A DNA stretch of 45,640 nucleotides from a virus. Below the pieces are notes generated by a model that was not told where the DNA came from, searched no databases, and saw nothing but the letters and a program-made list of their open reading frames with translations. The DNA lies in the IMG/VR virus record IMGVR_UViG_3300027833_001544, positions 1 through 45,640 of that record; one strand, written 5' to 3'. Below are positions 5,258 to 45,640 of the stretch, piece by piece; the stretch's first letter is position 1, and every line of letters begins with the position of its first letter. A program made the position numbers and the translations under genes.

Positions 5258-5937
5258 AGGCATATATTCTAAAAATCAATACAGAGCTATCAATGGAATA
5301 CGCAAAGATTGCAGCTGACTCTTGTGATAAAGTTGGATTGCCTTGGGAATATCATTTAGGATATAGTAATCAAACAGGCAAGTCAGCATTCCGAGATTTA
5401 AATATACCTGGGTTGCCAACTGAACCTTATAAGCATATTGAAAACCCATATACTGCACACAAAGCTTTTTGTTGTACCGCTGGTCATTTCGCTATATGGA
5501 AAAGAATTGCTGAAGGTACTGATAACGTAGGGGTTGTACTTGAACACGACGCTATAATGCTACAGCCAATATCAATAGAAATACCAGAAAATACTATCGT
5601 GGTATTAGGATATAAAATAACCGATCCAAATAATTACGATCACGCTTCTGCTGGTCCTCCAACCGATTTAATTAGCATTGAAGGACATGAAGGTGCACAC
5701 GCCTACGCTATGACTAAGCGAACTGCTCAATTTTTGATTAAAGAATTATCTGAACAAGGTATACGAAGTGCGGTTGATAATGATTATTTTATAGTGCGCC
5801 AGCGGAGAACAGCTATCCCATTGCATATAGCATCACCAACTCCTGCCCTTGGATGGCTTAGAGAGTCAACTATATGGGGTAAATCGGCACAAGTTAACTA
5901 TCAATTCATACCCTCTTTTCAAAAATATTATAAATAG
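5254..5937 (+). CDS. Glycosyltransferase family 25-like (LPS-type)
   Basis: A 227-residue protein overlapping the sulfotransferase stop (ATGA). The start (KAYILKINTELSMEYAKIA), the segment CTAGHFAIWKRIAE at about residues 74-87, and VVLEHDAIM at about 96-104 match the GT25 layout (helix ahead of an E-x-D). A later GAHAYAMTKRTAQFLI matches the family's acceptor-side helix. GT25 enzymes transfer galactose or related sugars in LPS synthesis. It ends the late-transcribed surface cassette; its 3' end overlaps the late promoter for the next gene. Confidence 0.7.
   Translation: MKAYILKINTELSMEYAKIAADSCDKVGLPWEYHLGYSNQTGKSAFRDLNIPGLPTEPYKHIENPYTAHKAFCCTAGHFAIWKRIAEGTDNVGVVLEHDAIMLQPISIEIPENTIVVLGYKITDPNNYDHASAGPPTDLISIEGHEGAHAYAMTKRTAQFLIKELSEQGIRSAVDNDYFIVRQRRTAIPLHIASPTPALGWLRESTIWGKSAQVNYQFIPSFQKYYK
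5929..5936 (+). promoter_or_regulatory. T4-type late promoter TATAAATA
   Basis: Exact late core, overlapping the last codons of the GT25 gene. Predicted start near 5942, 27 bases before the ATG at 5969. It likely drives the whole 5969-10949 internal-protein run. Confidence 0.6.
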
Positions 5938-5968: not shown

Positions 5969-8212
5969 ATGGTTGACGAACCACAGCAAGACATTAATGA
6001 CCCAAAGAATAACGATGAAGTCGAAGCCAAACCTAAATCAAAGCCAAAAGAAAAGGCTGCTGAAAAAGGTAAAGACGGCAAGCGTAAAATTAAGAATTTT
6101 AAAGGGTTTGATGCAGGAAAATATATCGATGTTGAGCCAGTATTAAATGAAATGGCATCAACCAAACCCGCTGTTATAACTTTTGGAAGAATGAACCCAA
6201 TTACAGTTGGCCATGAAAAATTGGCTAATGCAGTTGCGAGTCAAGCCAAAAACAGTGGTGGTGTTGGTTATATTTACCTTTCACAATCACAAGATAAAAA
6301 CAAAAATCCATTAAGCTATAATGATAAAATTAAATATGCTCAAAAGGCGTTTGGTAAAATCGTTATTAAATCAAAAGCAAGAACTATTATTGAAGTGATG
6401 GCTGAGTTGAGTGGTAAACATAAAGATGTCATAGTAGTTGTTGGATCTGACAGAGTAAAAGAATTTGATAGATTACTAAACAAATATAATAAATCATCAG
6501 CAGGTTATATATTTAATAATATTACAGTTGTATCAGCAGGGCAACGCGATCCTGACGCCGAAGGTGTTAAGGGAATGTCTGGAACTAAAATGCGTGGGTT
6601 TGCCATGGATAATGATGTTAAGAGTTTTGCAACCGGATTACCAAGTAAATTGAAAACAACCGCAGCTGCGATATTAGCCGACGTGCGAAAGGGAATGAAC
6701 ATGTCAGAAGATAACGATAACGAATTTGAAAACATTGAAGATTTTGTAGAGGATACGGCAGAGCTTGACGAAGTTCTAGATCGTATGCAGCGAAGAGCTA
6801 TCGGTATTAGGATGCGTAAAAACAGATTTAAAATGAAACGTGGTAGAGAAAAAGCTGCTCGACGAACTGCAACCATGGAAATTCTAAAGAAACGGGCCCG
6901 CAAACAAGCAATAAGAAATCTTAAAGACCGTTTTGCAAAAAATAAACGATATGCTGATATGTCGTCTGGTGAAAAGATTGTAATTGATAAACGTGTTGCT
7001 AAATTCTCTAAACAAAGATTAGATGCAATGGCTCGAAAGCTATTACCAAAGGTTAAAGTTAAAGAGCGCGAACGTAAACTAGCCATGAATAAATCTAAGA
7101 ACGAAAGTCTAAACCTACAATTTGAAAACTTTGTAGCAGAAGCTCATAACCCAAAACATGTAAGAATGGCAGTAGGCATTGCCGCTGATAAAAAATATGG
7201 TAATAACATGTCAGGCGCATCAAAGGCTATTAATAAAATTGCTAAGGGTTTATCTGACCACCCTCAAGTTGCTGCGGTACTTAAACGTAAAAACGAAGAC
7301 TTAGAAGAGAACCATATTTGGGGACAACGTCAAGGTAAACGCCCTCATATGCTTTTAGATAGAAACGGTAAAACAAAATTTGATAAACGTTTCAAAATGT
7401 ATAGACCAAAACTTGATGAAAGCATTAACGAGTTTGACATTATACATATTACAGATTTAATGGAATCAACAGAGTCGTATATCAAAGAAGATGCTGCTGA
7501 TAAATCTCTGGCTAAAAAATCTGAGAAATCTGGTATGCCGCAAGGTGTTTTAAAACAAGTATATAACCGTGGCGTAGCTGCGTGGAAAACTGGTCATAGA
7601 CCTGGAACTACACCAGAGCAATGGGGACATGCAAGAGTTAATTCTTTTATAACCAAATCTTCTGGTACATGGGGCAAAGCTGATAAAGACTTAGCTTCCA
7701 AAGTACGCAAAGAAGAAGTTGAACTTGAAGAAAATTATAAAATTACTAAAATGTATAATCCAACAACGAAAAAATCTCGTACAGCTGGGAAGAGTACAGC
7801 AACATTCGCTGTACATACACATGATCGTAAATACTTTAAAGAGTTTCCAAATCAAAAAGATGCTCAAAACCATATGAAATCTCTTGGTAAAAAAGAAGAA
7901 GCTGAACTTGATGAAATGGATTTCTCTATTAAATCAGTAAAGAAATCTGGATTATCAAATCTTAAAAAAGCAAACAACTTTGATAAATTAAAATCAGATA
8001 TTGCTAAAATGAGAGACAAACTTAATAAAGATAAAGGTCTCAAAACTGAAGCAGAGATTAATGAGCTAGACAAGGATACGCTTGCTAACTATGCTAATAA
8101 AGCAGTTAAAGATAAAGAAGATGCAAAGTATTCTAAAGATAGCGCTCAAAATTCTAAAACAGCTAATTTTACTCGTAAAATGTTAAAAAGCGATAAGGAA
8201 AGCAAAGAATGA
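5969..8212 (+). CDS. Nucleotidyltransferase fused to basic and repeat-rich phage domains
   Basis: A 747-residue protein; the start at 5969 has AGGA 9 bases upstream. After a Lys/Glu-rich head, residues 67-240 form a cytidylyltransferase-like domain: ITFGRMNP, T-V-G-H at 79-82 (the HxGH motif with Thr for the first His), VVVGSDRVKEF, and GMSGTKMR at 202-209 in place of ISSTxxR. Residues 270-375 are highly basic, with R/K-rich helices ending KLLPKVK, as in a protein widespread in marine T4-like phages. Residues 508-580 match a conserved phage segment (SGMPQGVLKQVYNRG, DUF5872-like). Acidic L-x-E motifs (LNEM, FVAEA, LEEN, LDEM, INEL) resemble gp21 prohead-protease sites, so it may be cut and packaged. 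Nucleotide substrate unknown. Confidence 0.75.
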   Translation: MVDEPQQDINDPKNNDEVEAKPKSKPKEKAAEKGKDGKRKIKNFKGFDAGKYIDVEPVLNEMASTKPAVITFGRMNPITVGHEKLANAVASQAKNSGGVGYIYLSQSQDKNKNPLSYNDKIKYAQKAFGKIVIKSKARTIIEVMAELSGKHKDVIVVVGSDRVKEFDRLLNKYNKSSAGYIFNNITVVSAGQRDPDAEGVKGMSGTKMRGFAMDNDVKSFATGLPSKLKTTAAAILADVRKGMNMSEDNDNEFENIEDFVEDTAELDEVLDRMQRRAIGIRMRKNRFKMKRGREKAARRTATMEILKKRARKQAIRNLKDRFAKNKRYADMSSGEKIVIDKRVAKFSKQRLDAMARKLLPKVKVKERERKLAMNKSKNESLNLQFENFVAEAHNPKHVRMAVGIAADKKYGNNMSGASKAINKIAKGLSDHPQVAAVLKRKNEDLEENHIWGQRQGKRPHMLLDRNGKTKFDKRFKMYRPKLDESINEFDIIHITDLMESTESYIKEDAADKSLAKKSEKSGMPQGVLKQVYNRGVAAWKTGHRPGTTPEQWGHARVNSFITKSSGTWGKADKDLASKVRKEEVELEENYKITKMYNPTTKKSRTAGKSTATFAVHTHDRKYFKEFPNQKDAQNHMKSLGKKEEAELDEMDFSIKSVKKSGLSNLKKANNFDKLKSDIAKMRDKLNKDKGLKTEAEINELDKDTLANYANKAVKDKEDAKYSKDSAQNSKTANFTRKMLKSDKESKE

Positions 8213-8418
8213 AAAAGTTTAAAGCATTCGTAAAGGCAGGTGCTGGTGACGTAGGCACTGACGAACTCGTTAAAACTCTTAAAGATGACACTCCAATGGC
8301 AGAAGCCTGTTGGGACTCACATAAACAAGTAGGTATGAAGAAAAAAGGAAACAAAATGGTTCCTAATTGCGTACCTAAAAACGAAGATGCCGAATACGAT
8401 AACGAGTTTGGCGGTTAA
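8209..8418 (+). CDS. Small conserved phage protein with MKKFKAF leader
   Basis: A 69-residue protein overlapping the stop of the large upstream gene (ATGA). The start MKKFKAFVKAG is a variant of the shared leader of the next six genes but lacks the Glu at position 10. The C-terminal part (CWDSHKQVGMKKKGNKMVP then NCVP) is a short motif I recognise from many phage genomes without known function. It may be a member of the putative packaged-protein family whose leader is not cleaved. Confidence 0.65.
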   Translation: MKKFKAFVKAGAGDVGTDELVKTLKDDTPMAEACWDSHKQVGMKKKGNKMVPNCVPKNEDAEYDNEFGG

Positions 8419-8419
8419 T

Positions 8420-8869
8420 GTGTTACGGTTTAAACAATATATGACTGAATATACTGTTAAGTCAATGGCAAAATACCATGAAATAACAGGCACAGAATTT
8501 ATTAAGCCTAAGGTTAAAGTATTAAAGTTACCAACAAAAAACGTAACTGATAATGATTTAATATATGCTCAATTAATGTATGGTCACCTAGAAAGCTATC
8601 AGTATGCGGATCTTGCATTTCCGGGTTCTACCAGAAAGACTAATACGTGGTTTAGTAAATATTCTAAAATAGCCAAAATATATGGCGAAGAAAACGACGC
8701 AGGCGACCATTTATCTGTTATGAGAAAAGTTGTTGAAATGACTAGTCAACGTAGTAAAAACTATAAATTAAATGGTAGAGAATGGAAATCTAGTAAACAA
8801 GGTAAAGCTTGGGATGCATGGGAAACTGAGCAAAGAAAAATTTATCCGGAGCAATGGCGCGATGATTAG
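8420..8869 (+). CDS. Putative capsid-targeted internal protein
   Basis: A 149-residue protein. The GTG at 8420 is chosen because it yields MLRFKQYMTE, matching the leader of the following genes, and begins two bases after the previous stop; a longer reading would run into the previous gene. The body (FPGSTRKTNTWFSKYSKI, then REWKSSKQGKAWDAWETEQR) is basic and unrecognised. Under the T4 internal-protein model it would be brought into the prohead and cut after Glu10. Confidence 0.6.
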   Translation: MLRFKQYMTEYTVKSMAKYHEITGTEFIKPKVKVLKLPTKNVTDNDLIYAQLMYGHLESYQYADLAFPGSTRKTNTWFSKYSKIAKIYGEENDAGDHLSVMRKVVEMTSQRSKNYKLNGREWKSSKQGKAWDAWETEQRKIYPEQWRDD

Positions 8870-9218
8870 GTTTAAGGCGCATTTAAATGAAGCGGTGGAT
8901 AGACCACCTAAATGGAAAAAAGATACTAGCGATGGCGAAGGTGGTGCTCAAATTATTGAATTCCCGAAGACTAAGGTTAAGTACAGGGTTTCAAAGTTCC
9001 TTGATACTGGTGACCGTCATAAAGGTGAATGGAATGTAGAAGGCTGGGATACGCGTCGTAAGGAATGGGTATGGGATGAAACTCTCGCTCCAAAGGCTTG
9101 GGCAAAAGAGCTTTGTATATACCGAGGTCAGTTTAAACACGATCAGTACGGATCACCAATTAAAAAACAACAAATTACAGATTATAGTAAAACATTTAAA
9201 TTTGACGGGCATTACTAA
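8862..9218 (+). CDS. Putative capsid-targeted internal protein
   Basis: A 118-residue protein. The start at 8862, inside the end of the previous gene, gives MIRFKAHLNE followed by AVDRPPKWKKD; GGAG lies 10 bases upstream. The body is Trp- and Lys-rich (WNVEGWDTRRKEWVWDE, KAWAKELCIYRGQFK) and looks like a compact basic domain. No family recognised. The leader fits the (L/I)-x-E cut pattern of T4 gp21 at L8-N9-E10. Confidence 0.6.
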   Translation: MIRFKAHLNEAVDRPPKWKKDTSDGEGGAQIIEFPKTKVKYRVSKFLDTGDRHKGEWNVEGWDTRRKEWVWDETLAPKAWAKELCIYRGQFKHDQYGSPIKKQQITDYSKTFKFDGHY

Positions 9219-9511
9219 TGAAAAGTTTTAAACAATATATTTCCGAAGGTATTAGAATTAAGTATATTCGCGACAAGAATATGGGAGTGCTTAAGATGCA
9301 GGATACTAAACAAAAATCTTGGGTTGAACTCCGTGGTAAGCCAAACTTTGAAACAAAATACGATGCTAAAGATCCGCTACACAAAGCCATAACTGCATTA
9401 CGCAAATCTGTTAATGTATCTGAGCTTATGAATGGCGAGCCCGTAGGTATTAATCCAAAACATCCTGACGCTAAAAAAGCGCTCGCAGCAATAAAGAAGC
9501 TAATGAAATGA
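9218..9511 (+). CDS. Putative capsid-targeted internal protein
   Basis: A 97-residue protein whose ATG shares its A with the previous stop (TAATG). It begins MKSFKQYISE, with I8-S9-E10 as a possible gp21 site. The remaining 87 residues are basic and of unknown function, ending in a small helix (KKALAAIKKLMK). Size, charge and leader all resemble T4 internal proteins IPI-IPIII (comparison from knowledge of T4). Confidence 0.6.
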   Translation: MKSFKQYISEGIRIKYIRDKNMGVLKMQDTKQKSWVELRGKPNFETKYDAKDPLHKAITALRKSVNVSELMNGEPVGINPKHPDAKKALAAIKKLMK

Positions 9512-10305
9512 AAAGATTTAAAACATACATAAATGAAATGTTTAACAAGGTTCATCCTACGCTTAAAAAAGAATTAGGAAGCCACGGTGATCACGCTATT
9601 GGAATGGCTGGATCAGATAAAGGTGTTGCAGTATCATTTGATAGACCTAAAGATTCTAATGCTTTAAAAAAGCAAATGTCTCAACACGGTTATAAAAATG
9701 TAACCAAAACAAAAAGTGGTTTAGCTGGTCATAATCATGTATATCATTTTAGCGAAAGTGTAAATGAAGAAACTGGAGACTTAAACGAAAGTGCACTAAC
9801 CGCACTTAGAGTTGCGACGAAAGCCCATTCTGGTCAAACGCGAAAAAGCGGTGGTAAATATATTGAGCATCCAAAAGAAGTTGCTCGATTTGTAAAAAAG
9901 TTTAAGAAATCAAACAATCTTTCGGCATTAGTACAGGCGGCGTATTTACACGATACTATTGAAGATACTGACACTACATATGCAGATTTAGTTAAACAGT
10001 TTGGAGCTCTTGTGGCTGACATGGTTAAAGAATTAACTACTGATAAACAAGCATCCGATGCTATTGGTAAAGGCGAGTACATTGCTAATAAAATGGCTAA
10101 GATGTCAAGTTGGTCACTAGTTATTAAACTTGCTGATAGATTAGCAAACGTGCAGGATATTGATACACGACCAGCAGCTTTCCAGAAAAAATATGCTGCA
10201 GACACTACTCTAGCAATAAAGCGTTTAAGATCTGACAGATATTTAAGTAAAACTCATAATAAAATCATTTCAGATATTGAAAAGAAAATTAAGGAATACG
10301 TATAA
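9508..10305 (+). CDS. RelA/SpoT-MESH1-type HD hydrolase with capsid-targeting-like leader
   Basis: A 265-residue protein. Residues 1-10 are MKRFKTYINE, the shared leader. Residues about 96-265 match the HD hydrolase domain of RelA/SpoT and small alarmone hydrolases (MESH1). Matches are RKSGGKYIEHPKEVA (H121), AAYLHDTIEDTDTT (H148, D149, E152, D153) and LVIKLADRLANVQDI (D210). The four expected metal ligands and the E-D catalytic pair are all present, and no synthetase domain follows. Known members remove the 3'-pyrophosphate from (p)ppGpp; MESH1 also dephosphorylates NADPH. A second possible protease site (DLNES, about 91-95) would free the HD domain. Co-location with other leader-bearing genes suggests packaging and injection; that part is inference. 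Confidence 0.8.
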   Translation: MKRFKTYINEMFNKVHPTLKKELGSHGDHAIGMAGSDKGVAVSFDRPKDSNALKKQMSQHGYKNVTKTKSGLAGHNHVYHFSESVNEETGDLNESALTALRVATKAHSGQTRKSGGKYIEHPKEVARFVKKFKKSNNLSALVQAAYLHDTIEDTDTTYADLVKQFGALVADMVKELTTDKQASDAIGKGEYIANKMAKMSSWSLVIKLADRLANVQDIDTRPAAFQKKYAADTTLAIKRLRSDRYLSKTHNKIISDIEKKIKEYV

Positions 10306-10949
10306 TGAAAAGTTTTAAAACACATATTAGTGAATTATATACTATCGGACATACGAGATCCTATGATGCTGGCGCCAATCGAGCAAAGCAAAATGTAAAA
10401 CATGGTTCAACTGATCCAAAGGATAAAAGATTTGGTACTAAACTCGGTGGTCAAAAAGGTGAGCATGGGGGTGCAGCATATAAAACTCCGGAAGATGCTA
10501 CTAAAGGCGCTAAGGCGTTAAAGAAAGAATTTCCGGGCAGAAAATACAGTGTATATAAAATGAAAGGTGATTTCGATAAAGACACTTATCATAGCAATAA
10601 AACTGGTATGAACCATGTAAAAAAAGATACTGAAATTACTCATAAAGTAGCTCATAATGTATCAGAAGAAAAAGATCCACGTTTAAAAAGAGCTGGCGTA
10701 GCCGGTTTTAATAAAGCTAAGGGGACTCCTTCGCATTCAACTAAAAGCCATATCGTTGTTGCTAAAGATGGTGATAAGGTAAAAACAATTCGTTTTGGTG
10801 AGCAAGGTGCTTCTACTGCAGGTGATCCTAAAAAAGGTGAGTCTGATAAGATGAAAGCAAAACGTAAATCATTTAAGGCACGCCACGGTAAAAACATTGC
10901 TAAGGGTAAAATGTCAGCTGCGTATTGGGCTGATAAGGTCAAATGGTAA
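10305..10949 (+). CDS. Putative capsid-targeted protein, DUF6321-like C-terminus
   Basis: A 214-residue protein with TAATG overlap and leader MKSFKTHISE. The C-terminal 90 residues (RLKRAGVAGFNKAKGTPSH, then TIRFGEQG, then KSFKARHGKNIAKGKMSAAYWA) are a basic domain seen in many phage genomes. I believe it is DUF6321, sometimes found as a stand-alone protein of unknown function. The middle (KTPEDATKGAKALKKEFPGRKY) looks like a second small domain. High Lys and His content fits a DNA-associated packaged protein. Confidence 0.65.
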   Translation: MKSFKTHISELYTIGHTRSYDAGANRAKQNVKHGSTDPKDKRFGTKLGGQKGEHGGAAYKTPEDATKGAKALKKEFPGRKYSVYKMKGDFDKDTYHSNKTGMNHVKKDTEITHKVAHNVSEEKDPRLKRAGVAGFNKAKGTPSHSTKSHIVVAKDGDKVKTIRFGEQGASTAGDPKKGESDKMKAKRKSFKARHGKNIAKGKMSAAYWADKVKW

Positions 10950-10955
10950 TTTTTT

Positions 10956-10963
10956 TATAAATA
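10956..10963 (+). promoter_or_regulatory. T4-type late promoter TATAAATA
   Basis: Exact late core in the 39-base gap before the 10989 gene, following a T-run. Predicted start near 10969, about 20 bases before the ATG. Confidence 0.6.
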
Positions 10964-21767: not shown

Positions 21768-22964
21768 ATGAACTATTTGAAATATTTTGAAAATACAGTT
21801 AAAGAATTTAAAGCCGATGGCAGATACAGAGTCTTTAACGATATACTTAGAGAGCGAGGGGTTTTCCCTCGCTCAATCTGGTACGGTAAGTATGGGCCAA
21901 AAAATATAGTAAATTGGTGCTCAAACGACTACTTAGGTATGGGACAAAACCAATATGTTATAGATGCTATGCATACAGCTCTAGATCAAACTGGTGCTGG
22001 CTCAGGAGGTACTCGCAATATTGGCGGTACATCACATTACCACGTTACACTAGAACGCACTTTGTCTAAACTCCACAATACAGAAGCAGCTCTGGTATTT
22101 ACTAGCGCGTATGTTGCGAATGAATGGTCACTTATTGCTTTATCTAAAATTATACCAGACTTATGTTTTATTTCTGACAGTAAAAACCATGCCTCAATTA
22201 TTATGGGTATGGTAAACAGCAGAGCAGAAAAACTAATATTTGAACATAATGATATGGCTGATTTAGAGAAGAAACTTAAACTGGCTATCAAACGTAAACT
22301 TAATCCTGTAATTGTATTTGAGTCAATATATTCAATGGATGGAGATGTATCACCTATAAAATCTATAATTGATCTGGCGTATAAATATAAGGCAATGACT
22401 TATATAGATGAAGTTCATGCAGTAGGTCTTTATGGTAAAACCGGCGCTGGGTACTGTGAAGAGCTAAACTTATATTCTGATAGTATCGACATCATCAACG
22501 GTACATTAGGCAAAGCATACGGCGTCCAAGGAGGTTACATTGCAGGTAATCAAACAATTATTGACGCTATTAGATCGACTGCCAGTGGCTTCATATTCAC
22601 TACCAGTATGTCACCAGTCATATGTGCTGGGGCTCTCGCCAGTATAAATTATCTAAAGGATCACAATTCCCTTAGAGAAAAACATCAAGAACGTGTTGCC
22701 AAACTCAAAGGCATGCTTATTGATGCAGGAATAAACATTCATCCGAACGCTTGTACTCACATTCTACCAGTGATGGTCAATGATGCGTTTAAATGCAAAG
22801 AAGCTTCGGATAGATTGATAAACGAATTCGGTATATACATACAACCGATTAATTCTCCAACAGTGGAGCAAGGTACAGAGCGATTACGTATCGCACCTAC
22901 TCCATACCATACCGATATAATGATGGTAGAATTAGTCGAAGCTCTGAAAGAAGTATTAAAATGA
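21768..22964 (+). CDS. hemA: 5-aminolevulinate synthase
   Basis: A 398-residue protein of full family length. It follows alphaproteobacterial ALAS closely: [27 protein letters not shown] (53-60), [17 protein letters not shown] (76-92), [19 protein letters not shown] (185-193), [12 protein letters not shown] (D214, H217), and [14 protein letters not shown] with the PLP lysine K249. The C-terminal [15 protein letters not shown] is also conserved. It condenses glycine and succinyl-CoA to 5-aminolevulinate, the first step of heme synthesis by the C4 route. No other heme synthesis gene is in the window. It lies 4 bases after nrdA and overlaps the next gene's alternative start. Related alpha-oxoamine synthases (KBL, BioF) are less likely given the ALAS-specific spacing. 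Confidence 0.9.
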
Positions 22965-43921: not shown

Positions 43922-45640
43922 TGGCAATTACTAAACGCGGCGAAAAGGGTAGTGCTTTAACATACGACGAAATGGACGATAACTTTGATGCTATCACGCC
44001 ACAGACAAGTCCAACTGGAGCAGTTAAAATCCCCGCCGGTACAACAGGCCAGAGACCAACTGGTGAAGAAGGCCATTTACGATTTAACACTGCATCACAA
44101 CAATTTGAAGGATTTCAAGGAACTACTTGGTCAAGCATTGGTGGTGCTGGAGGCGGTGGCGGTGGAAGCCCAGGCGCGCAAGGTATTCAAGGTACTGATG
44201 GTAATGCTGGTCCTTCAGGAAACCCAGGTTTACAAGGTTCAACAGGTGACCCAGGGCTTGAAGGAGATCCAGGTCCACAAGGTATTACTGGTGGCGCTGG
44301 TGATGAAGGCCAACAAGGCGACCCAGGGATCCAAGGTCCAGCTGGTTCTGTTCAAGGTTTGCAAGGTACTATTGGTACTCAGGGATTTATAGGTACTGGT
44401 ATTCAAGGTACAACTGGTGCAGGTACTGATGGAGACGAAGGTGCTCAAGGTATCCAAGGTTCAGCCGGTTCTACACAGGGTACTCAGGGTTTAAGAGGAC
44501 CAGATGGTTCTGACGGTTTTGGTGCCCAAGGTGTAACCGGTTTACAAGGCGCTGCAGGTTCAGTTCAAGGTTTACAAGGTACTGTTGGTCCAGCAGGGTT
44601 TGGCTCACAAGGTATTCAAGGCATCCAAGGTATTGAAGGTCAACAAGGCGAAGACGGCGAACAGGGTTTACAAGGTAACGATGGAGCAGGTTCTCAAGGT
44701 ACTACTGGTTTCCAAGGCTTCCAAGGTACCGAAGGATTTCAAGGTAATGATGGTTTTGGATTACAAGGTTTACAAGGTCAACTTGGCAACGATGGACCAC
44801 AAGGTGTGCAAGGTAACTTCGGTTTACAAGGTACAACTGGCGTAGGTGCTGACGGTGTCCAAGGTATTATTGGTGTACAAGGTTTTCCTGGAGATGTTCA
44901 AGGTGTTCAAGGTGAAATTGGTGCCGGTCAACAAGGTACACAAGGTATTCTTGGGCCTATTGGTATACAAGGAAACTTTGGTCCAGAACTTCAAGGTGTT
45001 CAAGGTCAAGCTGGTTCAACGCAGGGTATTACTGGTGAACAAGGTGATGAAGGTGCACAGGGTACCCAAGGATTTATAGGTCCGTCATTACAGGGTGAGC
45101 AAGGTTTACAAGGTCAACCTGGGGTTGATGCAGCCGGTTTCCAAGGTGCTCAAGGCTTATTAGGTTTCCAAGGTACGCAAGGTTTTCAAGGACCAACTGC
45201 GTTCCAAGGTGTACAAGGATTTGGTGGACCAGGCGCGGTTGGTGTACAAGGTATTCAAGGCTTACAAGGATTTGTTGGTGAACAAGGTGATGACGGTATT
45301 GGTATACAAGGTACGTTTGGTATCCAAGGTACACAAGGTTTACGAGGAGAAACAGGATCTGAAGGTCCGGGTGGTTCTGGCGGTATTCAGGGTACGCAAG
45401 GTACACAAGGTGTTCAAGGTGTTTCCGAAGCTGGTACTCAAGGTATCCAAGGTTTACAATCCGTTCAAGGTTTGCAAGGTACAACGAGCCCAAATCCGCT
45501 GTTTGCTGCTAATGAAGATACTCCTACTGCTCAACCTGTAGCAACGGGTTCAAACGCAATTGCGCTAGGCGACTCATCAGATGCTTCGGGTGCTGACTCA
45601 CTTTCGTTTGGTAGAGATTCAACAGCAAGCGGAGCTGACT
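43921..45640 (+). CDS. Collagen-like tail fibre protein (3' end outside window)
   Basis: Open from the ATG at 43921 to the window end (573 codons, no stop). The N-terminus ([20 protein letters not shown]) is a short attachment domain common in marine phage fibres, followed by a beta segment ([20 protein letters not shown]). From about residue 80 a Gly-X-Y tract runs for over 400 residues, with Gln very common ([15 protein letters not shown], and so on), which would form a collagen triple helix. After it comes [20 protein letters not shown], like YadA/Hep_Hag head repeats of trimeric adhesins. This is a trimeric receptor fibre or tail-edge protein. The C-terminus, and thus the receptor-binding part, is not visible. 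Confidence 0.85.
44158..45485 (+). repeat. Collagen-like Gly-X-Y coding repeat
   Basis: The CAAGGT/CAAGGC hexamer (Gln-Gly) recurs dozens of times and codes a Gly-X-Y tract within the fibre gene. Such repeats can expand or shrink by recombination and are the reason for several spurious long open frames on both strands. Confidence 0.85.

Follow-up and report, generated by a model that had tools for sequence, protein, structure and literature searches.

The window analysed here, the whole 45,640-nucleotide virus record IMGVR_UViG_3300027833_001544 from IMG/VR, contains a gene for an HD-domain protein with a short N-terminal leader, and raises the question of whether a T4-like marine phage may carry an alarmone hydrolase in its head and inject it with its DNA; that the hydrolase might be packaged and injected had been suggested in a preliminary description of the sequence. 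The features of the locus are listed in Table 1. We found that the RSH-type HD domain occupies residues 94-265 of the 265-residue protein, with no further domain C-terminal to it. The protein matched Pfam HD_4 over residues 99-233 (E 6.5e-16) and PHROG 990 (2.7e-29), with MESH1 and Rel as the best solved relatives of the HD domain, and AlphaFold modelled the HD part with a pLDDT near 90. Structural comparison with MESH1 (Foldseek, VIA-align), suggested in the preliminary description, ranked human MESH1 first (Z 22.4, rmsd 2.4, 168 residues), followed by the P. aeruginosa small alarmone hydrolase (SAH; Z 20.7) and then SpoT/Rel, the MESH1-NADPH and MESH1-PAPS complexes being the closest folds to the predicted structure. 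The six residues named earlier as evidence for a complete RelA/SpoT-MESH1 HD domain (H121, H148, D149, E152, D153 and D210), which comprise the catalytic His, the HDxxED motif and the Asp, are retained in the protein without exception and are invariant in an alignment of 27 sequences, as are R112, Y118 and N214. Catalytic residues remain invariant across relatives sharing 52-96% identity, and close pairs of relatives have dN/dS values of about 0.03-0.05. The reported absence of a synthetase also held: the HD domain runs to the last residue of the protein, 265, and RelA_SpoT synthetase (PF04607) was found neither in the window's record nor in the records of 16 relatives. A phage-encoded toxSAS with its own antitoxin was therefore rejected for these 17 records. 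Judged by domain, active site and predicted fold, the protein is a predicted stand-alone small alarmone hydrolase of the MESH1/SAH type; the fold and active site support a putative alarmone-hydrolase chemistry, but similarity of the HD fold does not fix the substrate.

Table 1. Features of the hydrolase locus and its flanks (window coordinates; a slash within a site marks the predicted cut)
Feature	Position	Strand	Basis
TATAAATA, T4-type late-promoter octamer, upstream of cargo cluster	5929..5936	+	
NMNAT/cytidylyltransferase-like polyprotein; internal xE/ sites (several possible Glu cuts); DUF5824 domain	5969..8212	+	
Small ORF, leader-like N-terminus MKKFKAFV	8209..8418	+	
Leader ORF, GTG start, (M)LRFKQYMTE	8420..8869	+	
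Leader ORF MIRFKAHLNE	8862..9218	+	
Leader ORF MKSFKQYISE, overlaps hydrolase gene start	9218..9511	+	
Putative small alarmone hydrolase with leader, 265 aa	9508..10305	+	ORF, domain, structure, alignment
Capsid-targeting-like leader MKRFKTYINE, residues 1-10, predicted cut after E10	9508..9537	+	T4 ipII/ipIII spacing; motif statistics
Swappable intermediate module, about residues 11-90	9538..9777	+	Comparison with relatives; low AlphaFold confidence
Conserved prohead-protease-type site L92-N93-E94/S95, directly before HD domain	9781..9792	+	Relatives, alignment
Predicted mature HD hydrolase domain, residues 96-265	9793..10302	+	AlphaFold pLDDT ~90; MESH1 Z 22.4
Leader ORF MKSFKTHISE, start overlaps hydrolase stop; C-terminal domain PHROG 7595	10305..10949	+	
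TATAAATA late-promoter octamer, 26 nt before next leader ORF	10956..10963	+	
Leader ORF MKSFKKHFNE, 555 aa	10989..12656	+	

The N-terminus resembles the capsid targeting sequence (CTS) of T4 internal proteins. The ten N-terminal residues of T4 IPIII suffice for packaging; within the CTS, targeting depends on positions 4 and 7 and processing on positions 8 and 10, and proteins fused to a CTS enter the head and are then delivered into the infected cell (PMC9026906). The hydrolase leader matches the sequence MKTYQEFIAE of ipII and ipIII at each of these positions (4, 7, 8 and 10), and one relative, L001, starts with MKRFKEFTS as compared with MKTFKEFTS in T4 ipI. The motif used in our searches, M..[FY]..[FYH][ILMTV] plus a Glu at positions 9-22, was defined with T4 and the window already in view, so that a fair test of it has to use the opposite strand, shuffled sequences and the remaining T4 genes as controls. 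Across 65 kb of T4 (two regions, 244 ORFs), it picked out ipI, ipII and ipIII and no others. It was present in five window ORFs, all on the plus strand, and in 237 plus-strand ORFs of 80 relative loci as against none of 1,866 on the minus strand, with a single occurrence among 3,674 shuffled ORFs, so the leader attributed earlier to the hydrolase is not a chance resemblance. Six tandem window ORFs (starts 8420, 8862, 9218, 9508, 10305 and 10989) have the exact leader spacing.

Between the leader and the enzyme, other relatives have a different module, or none, in place of hydrolase residues ~11-90, suggesting that N-terminal modules have been exchanged while the enzyme domain was retained. In all 54 distinct relatives, the HD domain is immediately preceded by [LIFM]xE[SND][AS], and E94 is invariant in the 27-sequence alignment. 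E10 and E94 are the predicted gp21-type cleavage sites of the protein, the latter being of a type resembling the cut in T4 gp23 (FLTE/A); gp23 proteins of related phages have LTE/AAP or SE/AAP at the position matching the T4 cut. The boundary of 96-265 drawn earlier for the HD domain corresponds almost exactly to the part that cleavage after E94 is predicted to free.

Among the 76 relatives with a complete N-terminus (of 80 loci), 60 carry the leader by the strict motif and 12 by a looser one; in the remaining four, missed by the pattern search, a leader was seen by eye, shifted by one residue or within a fused protein. The leader sequences have diverged widely while retaining the pattern, and in L060 and L061 the hydrolase domain lies inside an NMNAT-like polyprotein. 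By contrast, none of six control phage SAHs (pv27, BcepSauron, SSU5, Y3, 201phi2-1 and PHB04) has the leader or a pre-domain cut site, the HD domain starting at the first residue or after a short stretch. In the tree, the leader-bearing proteins together with L105 were separated from pv27/BcepSauron and cellular Rel with modest support (87/55). L105:4980, whose contig was assigned by binning to a Cyclobacteriaceae MAG and may come from a phage, is the nearest outside hydrolase relative and has a leader-like start, MSFKEFYITES. No close homologue was found in isolate phages, the best identity in phage records being below 60%. The scan of genome collections, in which most matches were to cellular Rel, did not indicate a host.

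The hydrolase gene shares overlapping starts and stops with both flanking leader ORFs. We found 11 copies of TATAAATA in the window, all on the plus strand, a total not clearly above chance. [TC]ATAAATA was present within 70 nt upstream of 18 of 165 leader ORFs, compared with 38 of 2,520 random plus-strand stretches (p 1.7e-9), an enrichment that is supportive only, since the random stretches were not matched gene starts. Genes for gp21 (PF03420) and gp23 (PF07068) were present in the same eight of the 16 relatives' records, all linear and often fragments; the window is itself a fragment, and gp21 is presumed for its phage from these relatives. Elsewhere in the window, the C-terminal domain of the leader protein next to the hydrolase, encoded at 10672-10950, resembles genes from Roseobacter and Celeribacter phages at the DNA level, which may hint at the host; an ORF at 21768-22964 appears by eye like 5-aminolevulinate synthase, which would point to an alphaproteobacterium as host; and collagen-like GxQG repeats were seen by eye in the translation of ~44000-45640, near the right end of the record.

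Proteins of several other kinds carry the leader in the relatives, including CCA-adding enzyme, SAM lyase, ADP-ribosyltransferase, SprT-like, zeta/PNK-like kinase, HNH and DUF6267 proteins. The SAM lyase of L060:5242-5826 starts with MQSFKSFLGE and may be compared with the leader-bearing virion SAM hydrolase of S-CREM2 described below. L019:9126-10064 and L007:1069-1965 belong to one cluster of leader-bearing proteins, of which the L019 member matches ADP-ribosyltransferase families, and L060:10994-12181 and L071:9077-9823 are a leader-bearing zeta-toxin/PNK-like kinase and a SprT-like metalloprotease, respectively. In some loci, the hydrolase gene is followed within ~0.6 kb by a gene for a CCA-adding enzyme (PolyA_pol) that also bears a leader (L037:9160, L040:1761, L041:9160, L047:8552, L062:2112, L064:8904, L065:8892, L066:8892, L068:8904 and L069:5186). 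As no more than 10 of the 63 loci with a long enough flank show this arrangement, the pair was rejected as a general rule, and a CCA enzyme downstream of the SAH in pv27 and BcepSauron was ruled out by eye. SAM-degrading enzymes are known anti-restriction activities and ADP-ribosyltransferases are the class of T4 Alt, so the cargo fits a role at entry.

Homologues of such cargo have been detected in virions. In the cyanophage S-CREM2, only two of 1,053 ORFs have the strict motif, gp6 (a SAM hydrolase, MKDFDSFLEE) and gp154 (cytidylyltransferase/NMNAT-like, MKNFSSFLTE), and both are in the published mass-spectrometry virion proteome (PMC10665884). With 52 of 219 proteins detected overall, this test is small (p 0.056), and the S-CREM2 authors considered that such detections may reflect contamination by abundant proteins (PMC10665884). 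In addition, S-SZBM1 gp140, whose N-terminus is MRFRQFIIEA and which belongs to the same NMNAT-like family as S-CREM2 gp154, was detected in virions (PMC9146016), and the virions of S-SM1 (PMC3037559) and of S-SCSM1 and S-CBWM1 (PMC9602691) contained NMNAT-like proteins. The window polyprotein at 5969-8212 is a member of this family and thus has cyanophage homologues that are virion proteins.

We infer that the hydrolase is packaged in the head and injected, and this is well supported by the match to the T4 CTS, the motif statistics, the conserved cut site, the leaderless controls and the virion proteins of S-CREM2. The preliminary description is very probably right about packaging: comparison with the T4 CTS, the conserved protease site, the gp21 and gp23 genes of related phages and the detection in virions of motif-bearing homologues of neighbouring cargo strongly support packaging in the head and release of the HD domain. 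The sequence comparisons are probably best explained if the protein is an internal head protein of a T4-like marine phage that is made late, cut, injected and able to remove 3'-pyrophosphates from host nucleotides. Specifically, the hydrolase would be synthesized late in infection and targeted by its ten N-terminal residues to the prohead core, where a gp21-type protease would cut once after the leader and again after E94, leaving the HD domain free in the head. The freed domain would be stored with the DNA, injected alongside it, and would hydrolyse the 3'-pyrophosphate of a host nucleotide in the first moments of infection, most likely (p)ppGpp and possibly (p)ppApp or pyrophosphorylated tRNA ends. 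A T4 head holds 40 Alt or ~360 IP molecules (PMC9026906); by arithmetic, with host and volume assumed, a T4-like dose would give 2-20 µM in a 0.03 fL cell and 0.07-0.6 µM in a 1 fL cell.

The packaged enzyme may instead be a pre-loaded antidote, acting not on bulk (p)ppGpp but on pyrophosphorylated tRNA 3'-CCA ends or (p)ppApp produced by toxSAS/CapRel-type immunity, a reading that we regard as tentative. It is consistent with the reversal of toxSAS tRNA modification by the SAH of phage SSU5, PaSpo (PMC11559606), with the anti-phage action of CapRel (PMC9712102) and with the CCA-adding enzyme downstream of the hydrolase in the ten loci above; however, neither the window nor 14 of the 17 records searched has that enzyme. 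With similar reserve, it is conceivable that marine T4-like phages carry an exchangeable, pre-made counter-defence kit on one CTS, consisting of alarmone hydrolase, CCA-adding enzyme, SAM lyase, ADP-ribosyltransferase and NMNAT, in which the hydrolase would undo toxSAS/CapRel-type alarmone/tRNA-pyrophosphorylation immunity at entry, before phage genes are expressed. A role like that of human MESH1, in which the packaged enzyme would be a phosphatase of NADPH (or PAPS) and alter host redox/nucleotide pools, perhaps together with its NMNAT-like neighbour, is unlikely: the MESH1-NADPH and MESH1-PAPS complexes are the closest folds and an NMNAT-like cargo gene is nearby, but the HD family match covers all RSH hydrolases and bacterial SAHs score nearly equally. 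An ordinary intracellular SAH, active late in the producing cell and with a leader unrelated to packaging, seems improbable, for although leaderless phage SAHs of such a kind exist, here the whole clade retains the leader and cut site, which it shares with unrelated cargo, including virion-detected proteins. Finally, IPIII affects T4 head assembly (PMC9026906), but the invariant catalytic residues, the strong purifying selection and the retention of the enzyme while N-terminal modules were exchanged make it very doubtful that the leader merely anchors a scaffold or filler whose enzyme activity is incidental.

A packaged, injected hydrolase would combine features of several known systems. It resembles T4 IPI, IPII and IPIII in its 10-residue N-terminal leader with aromatic residues at 4 and 7, a hydrophobic residue at 8 and Glu at 10; those proteins, however, are small and without assigned activity except for the anti-restriction function of IPI, whereas the hydrolase has a catalytic domain and a second cut site before it. 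Like T4 Alt, a head-carried and injected ADP-ribosyltransferase, it would be an enzyme delivered from the head, and an ADP-ribosyltransferase with a hydrolase-type leader is present in the relative L019, but the chemistry differs and the Alt propeptide is shorter and different. MESH1, the P. aeruginosa SAH and SSU5 PaSpo share its HD fold and active-site residues, yet the six phage SAHs examined lack its leader and pre-domain cut site. Polyvalent proteins and MuF toxins with RelA/SpoT domains are predicted to be injected alarmone enzymes, but carry synthetases rather than hydrolases (PMC5512222), and an HD-alarmone phosphodiesterase of jumbo phages is predicted to counter alarmone-based immunity, with no link to packaging in the part of that report consulted (PMC7824862). 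The preliminary description had considered virion-carried enzymatic effectors of this class to be new; virion-carried enzymes as such are not, given T4 Alt, but a virion-delivered or CTS-bearing alarmone hydrolase was not found in the literature searched, which excluded subscription journals and most preprints. CTS-packaged proteins, packaged enzymes and phage SAHs were each already known, and as far as the searched literature shows, their combination here is new.

Since the hydrolase appears to be tagged by a T4-type packing and injection peptide, the alarm could be cut off upon cell entry. If this is true, the phage would erase a signal of host alarm by means of an enzyme dose delivered with its DNA, and such a hydrolase would help against defences triggered ahead of early-gene expression. 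The 10-residue CTS may also serve as a readable tag, so that the effectors injected by marine T4-like phages, which are abundant and uncultured, could be listed from sequence alone.
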